This document shows positions 47,501 through 52,675 of a DNA stretch of 52,675 bases, piece by piece. This DNA comes from Bacteroidota bacterium (lineage in GTDB: Bacteria; Bacteroidota; Ignavibacteria; SZUA-365), in the NCBI GenBank assembly GCA_014860565.1, contig JACZJN010000027.1:1-52675 (forward strand). Direction: 5' to 3'. The notes under the pieces are model-generated. The model was not told where the DNA came from and made no database searches. It was given only the letters and a program-made list of their open reading frames with translations. The position numbers and the translations under genes were made by a program. Within the stretch, counting starts at the first letter, position 1. Each line of letters begins with the position of its first letter.

Positions 47501-47768
47501 GGCTTCAGGATTACTCCAAGTCAGGTAAAATGTAGGGGGAATTCCGACAATTGTCAAGAGACAGTTTCATATCTCATGAAATTCTCATTTTCAATTCCTG
47601 GAGCCCCGCTCCGCACGACTTCCATCCTCGGTCAAACTGCTGCAGCAACTTGCGAGTCATCCCGTGTCACGAACGTGGCTATCAGGTCAGAGATGGGACG
47701 ACATTTTGCATGGATTCCATTCTCGCCTCTGTGTACGTTGCATCTTCGCAACAACAACAGGGAGACAC

Positions 47769-49196
47769 ATGATGCTGCGATTCATTCCCTTTTCATTTCT
47801 TCTCATTCACTTTTTTTTCGTCGCACCCACGTTGCCGCTCATTGCGCAGCAGGTCGTCGTGAATGAAATCATGTTCGCACCCGCAACGGGAAATGCCGAG
47901 TGGGTCGAACTGTTCAATCCCGGCGTGAACGATGTTTCCATCAGGGATTGGTCCATGTGCGACAGAAGCGGGGCCACGGCGCTTCTCACGGCCGAGGATT
48001 GCACCATTCCCGCCGGGGGCTATATCATCATCGCGTCGTCGACACCGCTGGCCGCAGGCTGGGAAACGCTTCCCGCTGCGGTGCTGCTGCCATCGAACTT
48101 CCCCTCGCTCAACAACAGCGGCGACGATGTCGTGCTACACGATGCCGACGGGAACACCGTCGACTCCGTTGCCTACGCAAGCAGCTGGTCGCCCCAGCGA
48201 GGCGTATCCGCGGAACGCGTGCGCCATGATCTTGTGCCGCTGCGCGAAAACTGGGCGGCGTGCCAGGCGGCGGCAGGCGGAACGCCGGGCGAGGGCAACA
48301 GCGTGTCCGTTCCTCCGGTGGATCCCCTGCCCCGCTACAGTCTCATCATCAATGAAATCATGCCCGCGCCGCTTTCTTCTTCCTGTGAATGGCTGGAGCT
48401 GTTCAATCCCGGCACCGCTGCGGTGGATCTCTCGCGATGGGCCCTCGCCGGAAAAGCCGACAGCCACGGCGACAGGGCAATCATCGCGCTCCCGGCAGGG
48501 TCGGGAGAAATTCAGCCCGATGGCTACACGGTGATCGCCGCGGACTCAAGCATTCTGCTGCAATTCCCCGAAATCACTTCCCTCGAAAACGCAACGCTGC
48601 TTATTCTCAATCGCAGTTCGCTTTCCCTCAGTAACGCGGACGATGAAATTCTTCTTCTCGACCCTTCCGGCGCATGCATCGACAGTATCTGGTATCAGGA
48701 GAATTGGCATCATCCGATGCAGGCAAGCACGACCGGAATTTCTCTGGAACTGATGCAGCCGGACTTCCATGCATTCGGGTCAAGCGCATGGGGCAGCTGC
48801 ACCGCACCGGAGGGGGGCACACCGGGCGCGCGTAATTCCATCTTCACGGATGCGCCGCCACGGACCAGGACAGACGGCGCCTCGCTGTCCGCTTCACCCA
48901 ATCCGTTTTCTCCGGACGGGGACGGGCAGGAAGATTACTGCGTGTTTCACTGTCGACTTCCGGCGAGCGTAAACCAGATTCGCATGCGCATATACGATGT
49001 GGAAGGTCGGCAGATCGTGACACTGCGCAACAATCAGCCCATGGGCCGGGAAGGAGTGATCGTCTGGAACGGATTGGATGATGAAGGACGGCGCGTACGG
49101 GTAGGGGCGTTTGTCGCGCTGCTCGAGGGAATTGATCCGTTCGCGAATGTCGTCGGAGCAGCGAAGACGGTGGTAGTGGTCGCCCGCCGCTTATGA
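47769..49196 (+). CDS. Lamin-tail-domain secreted protein with FlgD-like C-terminus
   Basis: ATG 47769 (475 aa; SD ggag 5 nt upstream) gives a signal peptide to LIAQQ. Two lamin-tail (LTD) domains follow: VVVNEIMFAPATGNAEWVELFNPG (residues ~28-51) and LIINEIMPAPLSSSCEWLELFNPG (~190-213), each with the NEIM...EW(V/L)ELFN signature. The C-terminal ~100 residues (SASPNPFSPDGDGQED...DEGRRVRVGAFVALLEG) are of the FlgD-Ig/gliding-motility C-terminal type that sits in secreted proteins. The stop codon overlaps the convergent histidine-kinase gene by 6 bp. Role unknown. Confidence 0.8.
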   Translation: MMLRFIPFSFLLIHFFFVAPTLPLIAQQVVVNEIMFAPATGNAEWVELFNPGVNDVSIRDWSMCDRSGATALLTAEDCTIPAGGYIIIASSTPLAAGWETLPAAVLLPSNFPSLNNSGDDVVLHDADGNTVDSVAYASSWSPQRGVSAERVRHDLVPLRENWAACQAAAGGTPGEGNSVSVPPVDPLPRYSLIINEIMPAPLSSSCEWLELFNPGTAAVDLSRWALAGKADSHGDRAIIALPAGSGEIQPDGYTVIAADSSILLQFPEITSLENATLLILNRSSLSLSNADDEILLLDPSGACIDSIWYQENWHHPMQASTTGISLELMQPDFHAFGSSAWGSCTAPEGGTPGARNSIFTDAPPRTRTDGASLSASPNPFSPDGDGQEDYCVFHCRLPASVNQIRMRIYDVEGRQIVTLRNNQPMGREGVIVWNGLDDEGRRVRVGAFVALLEGIDPFANVVGAAKTVVVVARRL

Positions 49197-50888
49197 CCGT
49201 TTATTTTCGGAGCGCAGGAAGCCCTCCATCGATTTCTTTAATTCCTCGATCTGAAACGGCTTCGAGAAATACGCATTGCACCCGGCCTCGAGGCTTTGAA
49301 TGCGGTCTTTCGGAAACGCGTGCGCGGTGACCGCGATGATGGGGGTGGTACCGAATCGCTGATCGTGTCTGATACGCTTCGTCAGGGAAATACCATCTTC
49401 ATCGCCTTGCAGGGAAAGATCCATCAGCACGAGATCGATATGCGTGGACTCAATGATCCCCCATGCCTGCGCGGCGGTGGATGCGATGCGCAGGTTGTAT
49501 TCACGAGCCAGGAGCGACGCCATGTACTCCTGCGTCTCCTCGTCGTCTTCCACGAAGAGCACGGTCCGGAGTCCCTCGACCTGTGGCGTTTGCAGAAGCG
49601 GTTCAAGCGGAACGGTATCCGGGAAAACGCCATCGTCAAGCACCAGCGCCTCTTCGACCCGCTCTGCGAGAAATTGCAGCGTGAAAGTCGAGCCCTTCCC
49701 CTTGCGGCTTTTCACGGAAATCGAACCGCGGTTGAGCTCGACGTATTTCTTGGTGAGCGAGAGGCCGAGTCCCAGGCCGTCGAAAGGACGTGTGTAGCCC
49801 GACGCTTCCTGCGAGAACGTGCTGAACACCTTCGGCAGGTATTCGGGCGCCATGCCGATGCCCGTATCCGCGATCTCGATGCAGACGCGGCGATCCTGAC
49901 AGTACACGCGCACGTCGACCTGCCCCTTTTTCGTGAATTTGATCGCGTTGTCTATCACGTTCGAGACCGCCTGGTCGATGCAGTAGCGATCAGCATAGAG
50001 AATGACGGCGGGACATTCTGTGCTGTAGTTGAGGAGCAACCCCTTTTTGTGTGCGAGCGATTTCAGCTCCTGGACCAGTTCCTCGATGCGGTCCGAGACG
50101 CGGATCTCCTCTGGCTGCACGCTGAACGTTCCGACCTGAATGCTGGAAATGTTGAGAATGTGTTCGACCGTGCGCATCAGGCGTTGACTTCCGCGGCGGA
50201 TCGCCTGGAAATAGGAATCCATCTCGGGATACAGTTGTCCGACCAGTTCGTTGGTGATCAGGTTGCTGTAGCCGATAATGATGTGAAGGGGCGTGCGGAT
50301 TTCATGCGAGATGTTGGCGATGAATGCGTCCTTGAGCTTGTCCGACTGCTCGGCCCGCTCCTTCGCTGCGATCAGTTCCGCTTTCTGGCGTTCCTGCTGG
50401 GTGATGTCACGGATGACAATGTGCCGTGCTTCCTTCTCACCGTAGACGATAGGGATGGCGGTCAGCTCGATGTCGATGATCTGTCCGTCGAGTTTCTCAA
50501 GGTTTCCCTTTACATCCTTGACTTCCTGATTCTGCTCGAGAATATATGGGAATCGGCTATCCTCCCTCCGCTCGAAATCGCTCATGATGAAATCGAACAC
50601 CGAGCGTCCGTAAAGATCATCCTCCGTCGCCGCATCGAGCAGCCGCAGGCTCGCATCGTTAATGAAAACGATAATGTTGTCGACGGTGACGATGAGAGGA
50701 AATGGTGAGAGCTGCACGAGGCGGCGATAGCGTTTCTCGCTTTCGGCGAGCTGATCGAGGTTGCTCTTCTGCAGCGCGAACACCCTGCGCTGCTGGAAGA
50801 TGATAACGACGATGATGCCGAGCGCGAGCGTAAGCAGTACGATCGTACCGCTTATTACGACAGTCAGGAGTGAATTCGATTCGGCCAC
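49191..50888 (-). CDS. Hybrid sensor histidine kinase (TM-PAS-HisKA-HATPase-REC)
   Basis: The 565-aa protein starts at GTG 50888 (SD ggagag). One transmembrane helix (residues ~8-31) is followed by a PAS domain (~46-165), a HisKA with FIANISHEIRTPLH (His195), a HATPase_c (VIDNAIKF Asn314, DTGIGM, GLGLGLSL) and a C-terminal receiver domain (LFVEDDE, phospho-acceptor Asp490 in LVLMDLS, and a final Lys in FSKPF). It has almost no periplasmic part, so the signal probably comes through the PAS domain or a membrane partner. The multi-pass membrane protein encoded 175 bp upstream is a candidate. No DNA-binding regulator is present. Confidence 0.93.
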   Translation of the reverse strand: MAESNSLLTVVISGTIVLLTLALGIIVVIIFQQRRVFALQKSNLDQLAESEKRYRRLVQLSPFPLIVTVDNIIVFINDASLRLLDAATEDDLYGRSVFDFIMSDFERREDSRFPYILEQNQEVKDVKGNLEKLDGQIIDIELTAIPIVYGEKEARHIVIRDITQQERQKAELIAAKERAEQSDKLKDAFIANISHEIRTPLHIIIGYSNLITNELVGQLYPEMDSYFQAIRRGSQRLMRTVEHILNISSIQVGTFSVQPEEIRVSDRIEELVQELKSLAHKKGLLLNYSTECPAVILYADRYCIDQAVSNVIDNAIKFTKKGQVDVRVYCQDRRVCIEIADTGIGMAPEYLPKVFSTFSQEASGYTRPFDGLGLGLSLTKKYVELNRGSISVKSRKGKGSTFTLQFLAERVEEALVLDDGVFPDTVPLEPLLQTPQVEGLRTVLFVEDDEETQEYMASLLAREYNLRIASTAAQAWGIIESTHIDLVLMDLSLQGDEDGISLTKRIRHDQRFGTTPIIAVTAHAFPKDRIQSLEAGCNAYFSKPFQIEELKKSMEGFLRSENKRS

Positions 50889-51016
50889 GTGATCTCTCCG
50901 ACAATTGCCTGAAGCGACCTTGGGAGCTTGGGGGGCTGAAAGGTCTGGGAAACGTCAAAAGGGCGTTTGGCTAAAGAACGCTCGGCGGGTAGAATACGAT
51001 TTTGTCTCGGAAAATC

Positions 51017-51044
51017 CCAGCATCGCGGTGCTCAGTGATGCTGG
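51017..51044 (-). terminator. Terminator-like hairpin after the membrane protein gene
   Basis: The inverted repeat ccagcatc (51017-51024) / gatgctgg (51037-51044) is followed on the minus strand by gattttc. It lies between the multi-pass membrane gene and the kinase gene, so they may be separate transcripts. Confidence 0.5.
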
Positions 51045-51062
51045 CTGCCGGTATGGCTGTGG

Positions 51063-51866
51063 CTAATTTTGTTCGATTTCTTTCGATTTCCGAAGCTTCC
51101 GCCAGATTAGACTCCACCAGCTGCGCGGTCTCCTTGTGATCACCTTCCAACCATACTTTGGTGCACCAGTGCTGAGGATCCCGAAGGAAAAGAGTATGTT
51201 TTTGGTAACATTCAAAGCAGTATGGATGATCCAGATCCCGTGGTAGGTGTCTACACCCGGGCGGAACAGCTGTTCGATCAGCGAGAAGACAAACAGGTTT
51301 CCCGCGAAATACACGAGCAACCCCGAGGCGATCCAGAAAACTGGGTTGTCTACCAGCAGAACGCTGCTGTCTCTCATTTCCTTCACGAGTGTAAGGACTG
51401 AAAGAATGACGAAAACCACACTTTCGATAGAAAGAAAAATACTATCGAATTTATCTACCTCTGCAGAAAAATATTTCCCCGAAGACCAGATAATCAGAAA
51501 TATGGGGATGCTTGAGTACAGTATCCACCGTATCCCGCGATTTGGAAACCACCTGCTGAATACCAGGATCAGGAACACATATTCAATGGCAGAGAAAATG
51601 TCGTAGATATAAAGGTTGGGTTTGTACTGCCGAGCGAGTGCATATGCACTTGCTTCGCTGATTAGTACCAACAATAGGAGTACGGTAAAGTAGCGAAACG
51701 CCTTGTCAAGTTTTTTAAATCCGAGAGTTCCCAGGCTGAGTGGGAAAATCACCGTGAAGACAGACAAAAGAAAAATCTTGTTGAGAGTCTCACTGTAACT
51801 GTCTGTTGCAACAGACTGTATCAGGCCGAGTACGGGCTGGATGAACGAAAGGAGGAAAGAAGGCAC
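51063..51866 (-). CDS. Multi-pass membrane protein of unknown function
   Basis: The 267-aa product starts at GTG 51866, which has gagga 5 nt upstream. Seven or eight hydrophobic helices can be counted, from FLLSVFTVIFPLSLG to SFGILSTGA. FWIASGLLVYFAGNLFVFSLI and GIWIIHTALNVTKNILFSFG are the most distinctive segments, along with YKPNLYIYDIFSAIEYVFLILVF. I do not recognise a named family, but comparable unannotated proteins occur beside histidine kinases in Bacteroidota (impression, not verified). The gene is visibly more AT-rich than its neighbours. Its position between the kinase gene and the small paralogues suggests a shared system. Confidence 0.75.
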   Translation of the reverse strand: MPSFLLSFIQPVLGLIQSVATDSYSETLNKIFLLSVFTVIFPLSLGTLGFKKLDKAFRYFTVLLLLVLISEASAYALARQYKPNLYIYDIFSAIEYVFLILVFSRWFPNRGIRWILYSSIPIFLIIWSSGKYFSAEVDKFDSIFLSIESVVFVILSVLTLVKEMRDSSVLLVDNPVFWIASGLLVYFAGNLFVFSLIEQLFRPGVDTYHGIWIIHTALNVTKNILFSFGILSTGAPKYGWKVITRRPRSWWSLIWRKLRKSKEIEQN

Positions 51867-51909
51867 TGAATTCCTCGAAGAGGATGGGATTCATCAAAAA
51901 GAAATACCG

Positions 51910-51936
51910 AAATGGCTGTCCGCGAAACGGACAACC
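51910..51936 (-). terminator. Terminator-like hairpin after the first small paralogue
   Basis: On the minus strand atggttgtccg/cggacagccat pairs across a short loop with one mismatch and is followed by a T-rich stretch (tatttcttttt). Confidence 0.45.
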
Positions 51937-52017
51937 ATCTCATGTATGGAGAAATATAGCACTCGCTCCGGCAAACGCAAAGCATTCTTTGCACTAGTGC
52001 GGCACGGGGATGGGCTT

Positions 52018-52446
52018 TCAGGAATTCAACTCATTCGCCTCTTCATGGAAGCGCGAGATGGGTAATGCGTGACCGAAGACAAACCCTTCGGTGAGATCCT
52101 GACCATAGGGATCGACCGCTACCATGACCATCTGCGGATGTCCGTCTGTGTCTTTGCCATAGTAGTAGCGAATTCCGACGACATCTTCCTGCAGCAGCAG
52201 CTGTTCGATTGCCGCGCGGCTGAAATAGCGTCCTTTCACCGCACCTGTGCCTGCGTCCTTGCGATAGTTTCGCGTAAGGCTACCCGCCTCTTTCAGCGTG
52301 ATTGTATGATCCTCGAAACCTGTGAATACAGGACGAGTCCGTTCACGCAGAGCGACCGGCGCAGGTGGTGCGAGTGGCGCGTCGATATAGTACTGCGACA
52401 GGTCGATATCGGTCTTTGGCGCTGCATTGTTGTGCATTTCATTCAT
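52018..52446 (-). CDS. Small protein of unknown function, paralogue A
   Basis: The product has 142 aa from ATG 52446, chosen because aaagga lies about 8 nt upstream. A disordered Pro/Ala-rich start (residues ~1-35) precedes an Arg-rich helix-like segment (HTITLKEAGSLTRNYRKD), the core FSRAAIEQLLLQEDVVGIRYYYGKDTDGHPQMVMVAVDPYG, and a C-terminal tail ending NELNS. The core and the ending closely match the partial gene that follows on its other side, e.g. MVAVDPYGQDLTEGF versus MVGVDEHGKDLVNGF. I cannot assign a function. This copy lacks the cysteine tail seen in paralogue B. Confidence 0.75.
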   Translation of the reverse strand: MNEMHNNAAPKTDIDLSQYYIDAPLAPPAPVALRERTRPVFTGFEDHTITLKEAGSLTRNYRKDAGTGAVKGRYFSRAAIEQLLLQEDVVGIRYYYGKDTDGHPQMVMVAVDPYGQDLTEGFVFGHALPISRFHEEANELNS

Positions 52447-52548
52447 GTCTGTATCCTTTCGATGCATGTCCGTTACTGGGGAATTGGTCTGTGGACCTGG
52501 GCGGAATCCCTCCTCTCGCCCTGGGCGGGAGGAGGGTCCGGATACAAC

Positions 52549-52675
52549 TCAGCTGTTGAGCGGATTGAGGCCGCCACAGAACGGGGGACACGGGATCGAA
52601 CGCTCGGCGATGAAGCCGTTGACCAGATCCTTGCCGTGCTCGTCGACGCCCACCATGATCAGCACCGGACGTCCG
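52549..52675 (-). CDS. Small protein of unknown function, paralogue B (5' end beyond window)
   Basis: The open frame reads GRPVLIMVGVDEHGKDLVNGFIAERSIPCPPFCGGLNPLNS (here in part) and ends at TGA (complement of 52549-52551); it continues past the right edge. It is a paralogue of the gene at 52018-52446: both have a (I/V)MV(A/G)VD core, a G(Q/K)DL...GF motif and end LNS. Unlike paralogue A it ends with CPPFCGG, i.e. two cysteines spaced CxxxC, which could bind metal, form a disulfide or be modified. Function unknown. Confidence 0.7.
   Translation of the reverse strand, partial: GRPVLIMVGVDEHGKDLVNGFIAERSIPCPPFCGGLNPLNS

Follow-up and report, generated by a model that had tools for sequence, protein, structure and literature searches.

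How does a histidine kinase that hardly reaches beyond the membrane receive its signal, and do the genes encoded beside it belong to the same system? This question is raised by one end of a 52,675-nucleotide stretch of DNA from a Bacteroidota bacterium, which is the entire contig C88 of its assembly and is termed here the window. Two small genes (SML-b and SML-a), a gene of a membrane protein (MEM) and a gene of a hybrid histidine kinase (HK) follow one another there (Table 1). A sequence-only reading had placed all four genes on one strand and had suggested that the small proteins act as signals or substrates, the membrane protein as a sensor or processing factor and the kinase as output, or else that the genes are simply neighbours; the positions and the common minus strand were confirmed in the present analysis.

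Table 1. Positions of the cassette genes and associated features in the window.
Feature	Position	Strand	Remarks
SML-b (3' part)	52549..52675	(-)	remainder on contig C90, 1-324, minus strand
SML-b C-terminal tail CPPFCGGLNPLNS	52552..52590	(-)	motif common to the cassette's upstream proteins
SML-a, small protein, 142 aa	52018..52446	(-)	
SML-a C-terminal tail PISRFHEEANELNS	52021..52062	(-)	second tail type
Terminator-like hairpin, SML-a/MEM intergenic	51908..51942	(-)	16 pairs, then TATTTCTTT
MEM, seven-helix membrane protein, 267 aa	51063..51866	(-)	GTG start
Hybrid histidine kinase, 565 aa	49191..50888	(-)	one TM helix, PAS, HisKA, HATPase_c, receiver

The SML-b gene is cut by the end of the contig and, since C88 and C90 overlap exactly, the last 31 bases of the former being the first 31 of the latter, its 5' part continues on C90; the encoded protein ends in ..SIPCPPFCGGLNPLNS. 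A whole-genome search recovered it as a true paralogue of SML-a (41% over 41 aa, E 0.001), in agreement with what had been read from the sequence. For SML-a itself, an ATG at 52467 provides an alternative start that would give a protein of 149 aa. The assembly breaks within the same small paralogue in several related MAGs (window 52675 / C90:1; L207, L212, L213), probably because the tandem copies are near-identical. Neither SML nor MEM of the window has a Pfam or NCBIfam match; the first reading, too, could name no family for them. The MEM gene has 46% G+C, compared to 58% for the window. The kinase contains PAS (53-164), HisKA (186-251), HATPase_c (304-406) and Response_reg (443-553) domains, and its HisKA, HATPase_c and receiver domains define it as a hybrid histidine kinase; the near lack of an extracytoplasmic part, noted before, was borne out by a single N-terminal TM helix with few residues outside. 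A gene on the opposite strand (47664-49196, plus) converges on the kinase gene and encodes two lamin-tail-domain stretches with a weak CHU_C/FlgD_ig match at the C-terminus.

Some features of the window speak for independent genes. The intergenic gaps amount to 150-175 bp and a hairpin lies between SML-a and MEM, which would suit unrelated neighbours; together with the lack of a separate response regulator (RR) in the window, they count against the receptor reading favoured below. The claim that each gene has a hairpin of its own was upheld in part only: one good hairpin was found (51942-51908), and the scan as a whole gave five hairpins vs 3.7 +/- 2.1 in shuffles, i.e., no excess.

The same genes keep the same company in other genomes, as was seen when 296 Bacteroidota genomes were searched with a MEM profile and an SML profile. 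The MEM profile detected 138 copies in 62 genomes (in a sample of 395, 81 genomes; several copies per genome are often present) and the SML profile 33 places in 21 genomes; all 29 SML matches that lay on MEM-bearing contigs were directly upstream of MEM on the same strand. Neighbourhoods were read in 129 fetched regions holding the 138 MEM genes, and a histidine kinase was found directly after 118 of these genes, compared to 1 of 587 control genes. The gene after the kinase is usually a response regulator of the LuxR type (Response_reg in 47 and GerE in 45 of 50 sampled), and the median spacing is operon-like, with 15 bp between SML and MEM, an overlap of 18 bp between MEM and HK and 1 bp between HK and RR. 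In hold-out genomes, which had been kept outside model building, the kinase lay directly 3' of MEM in 31 of 34 cases; as the hold-out and the first set have some genera in common, this constitutes replication, not a fully independent sample. Among the relatives with a name are Hymenobacter, Pontibacter, Larkinella, Fibrivirga, Spirosoma (on a plasmid), Fluviicola, Calditrichota and Gemmatimonadales. MEM was present in 27 of 200 genomes of a Gemmatimonadota sample, with a kinase next to it in 12 of 17 checked loci, gene calls being rougher at that G+C.

SML, MEM and the kinase are associated, and the cassette is a real, widespread accessory module of two-component systems. The unrelated contexts that would have pointed to mere neighbours are not what the genomes offered: the pattern recurs in new genomes and in other phyla, and the gene order, which is fixed in more than 100 loci spread over dozens of genera and three phyla and was replicated in the hold-out, already refutes that alternative, which in spite of the wide gaps and the hairpin of the window has a negligible probability. 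Two features went beyond the sequence-only reading, namely the LuxR-type response regulator that normally completes the set and the tail motif of the upstream proteins. The SML-MEM-kinase module is apparently undescribed so far, since no published description was found in a literature search that was thin on subscription journals; the graspetide and biological-conflict literature, which was also considered, concerns other systems.

The window represents a clade variant of this module. Its closest relatives are Ignavibacteria-type MAGs, in six of which one or two copies with the CPPFC tail precede a single copy with the P[IV]SRFHE tail; behind these, where the contig extends that far, come MEM and a hybrid-sized kinase of ~560 aa. 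The presence of both tail types in six relatives indicates that the tandem pair is maintained, and the possibility that SML-a, which lacks CPPxC, is a decayed copy was rejected on the same ground, the P[IV]SRFHE tail being kept in all six. Most other cassettes have a HisKA_3 kinase of ~260 aa and a separate regulator. Tandem and alternating arrays were also observed, i.e., SML-MEM-MEM-HK, SML-MEM-SML-MEM-HK and SML-MEM-MEM-MEM-HK (L103, L104, L136, L177, L226, L233), which suggests that MEM forms hetero-oligomers or that one kinase serves several receptors, and in the loci examined there was no MEM-kinase or SML-MEM gene fusion. Some cassettes have effector-like neighbours, possibly their targets, in the form of genes of an M43 metallopeptidase, a Tle1-like lipase, a ClpB-type ATPase, a caspase-domain protein or a GDPD (L116, L184, L159, L188, L190, L105); no single common regulon emerged from the neighbouring genes. 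On the plasmid of Spirosoma oryzicola (L205, 6679-8351) three annotated tail fibre proteins come directly after the response regulator, the first of them with a phage-tail-collar match.

What, then, supplies the kinase with its input? The partner kinases elsewhere have HisKA_3 in 52 of 59 and HATPase_c in 57 of 59, a single TM segment, close to the N-terminus, in 113 of 118, and mostly no sensor domain. Kinases built on a single TM helix and mostly sensorless must obtain their input from elsewhere, and MEM, which adjoins the kinase and is receptor-shaped, is the best candidate for it. Its AlphaFold2 model (pLDDT 88.8, pTM 0.81) has seven long helices at 24-234, and the loops after helices 1, 3 and 7 are positively charged, so that by the positive-inside distribution the N-terminus is predicted outside and the C-terminus inside. 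Among PDB structures the model comes closest to GPCRs and microbial rhodopsins, with every one of the seven helices matched (Z 14.1, rmsd 3.5, 206 residues; Foldseek E only 0.057); unrelated helix bundles can reach such a Z by chance. By sequence MEM gave nothing significant against the PDB and no kinship to rhodopsins or GPCRs, and as far as the predicted model goes the likeness is one of arrangement only. Other identities were also considered and found no support: none of 96 MEM members matched any Pfam family, 7TMR-DISM_7TM (PF07695; hhalign probability 7.6%) and HisKA_7TM (PF16927; 2.5%) included, and for a retinal rhodopsin the lysine is lacking, as no lysine column in helix 7 rises above about a fifth of 95 sequences.

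As to what MEM reads, the tailed protein encoded just upstream of it is the strongest candidate. The SML proteins differ enormously from one another, with lengths of about 100-310 aa, and the SML profile fails to match roughly one third of the genes upstream of MEM, yet even these share a C-terminal tail that is proline-rich and often contains cysteine (CPPxC, YDF..PCPPxC, NHGxLIPP, MNYGNIGRPP or a terminal YDxGxxYP/RP). The tail pattern is present in 99 of 108 upstream genes (71 of 75 of the SML family, 28 of 33 others), compared to 37 of 567 small control genes. The pattern was composed after the first sequence set had been viewed and was then scored, in fixed form, on new genomes, where it was found in 29 of 32 hold-out genes and where, of the three misses, two finish with a related aromatic tail. 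Genomes with at least three cassettes usually show a distinct tail type in each, and different tails may serve to separate parallel cassettes within one genome. In partial Mantel tests the tail distance follows MEM and kinase distance and not regulator distance, the effect being modest: the partial r of tail vs MEM is 0.215 with HK and RR distance removed (0 of 500 permutations) and that of tail vs RR, given MEM and HK, is -0.109, and the tail-MEM correlation falls to 0.077 (6 of 500) once the SML body is also controlled.

The variability of the bodies, which far exceeds that of the tail, would suit input domains that can be exchanged while the docking tail stays common to all, and it raises the question whether SML might be the true sensor, of a small molecule or of the envelope state, with MEM as a mere adaptor or anchor to the kinase. 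The body of the window SML is in line with this, as SML-a is confidently predicted to be a folded alpha/beta domain (pLDDT 87, helix-helix-strand-strand core) rather than a disordered carrier of a peptide. Its fold found nothing in the PDB at E <= 0.001 (best Z 3.0), which does not by itself prove a new fold, and a search of SML against the PDB by sequence gave no significant match. We consider SML as the sensor unlikely, since no ligand-binding or enzyme family, nor any Pfam match, was recognised among 61 SML members, and since MEM is the most constant part beside the kinase and its seven-helix shape exceeds the needs of an adaptor.

The adjoining small tailed protein, membrane protein, kinase and regulator also bring to mind Agr (AgrBDCA), in which the same four component types form one set. 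By analogy, MEM would process or export the SML tail as a peptide signal and the kinase would sense the peptide, and both the different tails among the cassettes of one genome and the two cysteines around prolines in many of them would fit a pheromone. The likeness to AgrBDCA is one of working only. The cassette kinase has just one TM helix and lacks an outer domain for peptide binding, unlike the multi-helix receptor of the AgrC type; MEM shows neither protease-like conservation nor any near-invariant residues of a catalytic type (the best conserved are G182, F177, N84, W178 and Y186); SML is a folded domain of about 100-250 aa, and in about two thirds of cases it has no export signal. Such a peptide relay seems to us less probable still.

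The export signal poses the main difficulty for the reading favoured below. While about two thirds of SML proteins lack it, about one third resemble lipoproteins or proteins anchored in the membrane, and in the set used for the tree 28 SML proteins with a lipoprotein or anchor signal stand against 48 without. On the MEM tree the trait changed at least 12 times while tail and partners remained constant (gain and loss were observed in the upstream genes of L076-L204), and near-identical tails occur in opposite states, e.g., MNYGNMGPPP in the lipoprotein of L108 and MNYGNIGRPP in the signal-less protein of L142. So many changes are hard to reconcile with a single docking side; either the signal-less proteins leave the cytoplasm in some other way, or docking can take place on more than one side.

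We favour the reading, with a probability of about 0.55, that MEM is a stand-alone receptor, with the tailed protein as what it reads and the kinase under its control, the three parts forming a dedicated input to a two-component system. SML would act as a ligand-like partner and dock on MEM through its conserved C-terminal tail, MEM being a putative seven-helix receptor that stands alone in the inner membrane; the state of MEM would be passed to the downstream kinase by helix-helix contact, and the kinase would then phosphorylate the LuxR-type response regulator next to it, or its own fused receiver domain in the clade of the window. The sensorless kinase, the seven-helix MEM and the common tail agree with the signal, sensor and output roles proposed at first; the assignment of each role, with MEM and neither SML nor the kinase as the receptor, we infer, and physical contact between the parts and the direction of the signal are likewise presumed.

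Accessory proteins that act on kinases are known from other bacteria. SaePQRS of Staphylococcus consists of the accessory lipoprotein SaeP, the membrane protein SaeQ, the kinase SaeS and the regulator SaeR, so that a kinase without a large sensor domain is encoded with a small accessory lipoprotein and a small membrane protein. The cassette resembles it in that a small accessory protein and a membrane protein are encoded with a sensor-poor kinase and a regulator; unlike SaePQRS, it has a seven-helix membrane protein, the order SML-MEM-HK-RR, a common C-terminal tail and small proteins of which about two thirds lack an export signal, and the two have no Pfam family in common. In LiaFSR, an accessory membrane protein goes along with an intramembrane-sensing kinase. 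The likeness there lies in a membrane partner encoded, along with a regulator, beside a kinase that has nearly no outer part. LiaF, which PMC3543457 describes as an accessory negative regulator in LiaFSR, is of another family than MEM, and in the Lia system no tailed small protein is encoded upstream; no Pfam match to SaePQ or LiaF was obtained among 96 MEM or 61 SML members. Seven-helix sensors that feed outputs such as histidine kinases are found among 7TMR-DISM / 7TMR-HD, HisKA_7TM and LytS/BtsS-type proteins, e.g., BtsS, a bacterial seven-helix sensor with its N-terminus outside (PMC10653868), but these are fused to their output domains, whereas MEM stands alone. Judged by analogy, the cassette would work like the accessory-protein-controlled kinases of SaePQRS and LiaFSR with no families in common, and its tail code, common to the cassettes, is absent from both.

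The favoured reading can be carried further, to a bacterial analogue of peptide-GPCR signalling in which a stand-alone seven-helix receptor of rhodopsin/GPCR shape reads the C-terminal tail of a dedicated protein ligand from an adjacent gene and drives a sensorless kinase. This idea is tentative and rather doubtful; if it were true, multiple cassettes with different tail codes would be parallel channels, possibly for cell-cell communication in Bacteroidota, a phylum in which little such signalling is known. About one fifth of the sampled Bacteroidota genomes carry the module, and both of its sensor-side families are without a Pfam entry. Over a hundred 'hypothetical proteins' in the sample become a testable system. 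The module would explain the input to a large set of sensorless histidine kinases, and it may bring to light bacterial seven-helix receptors with ligand specificity.
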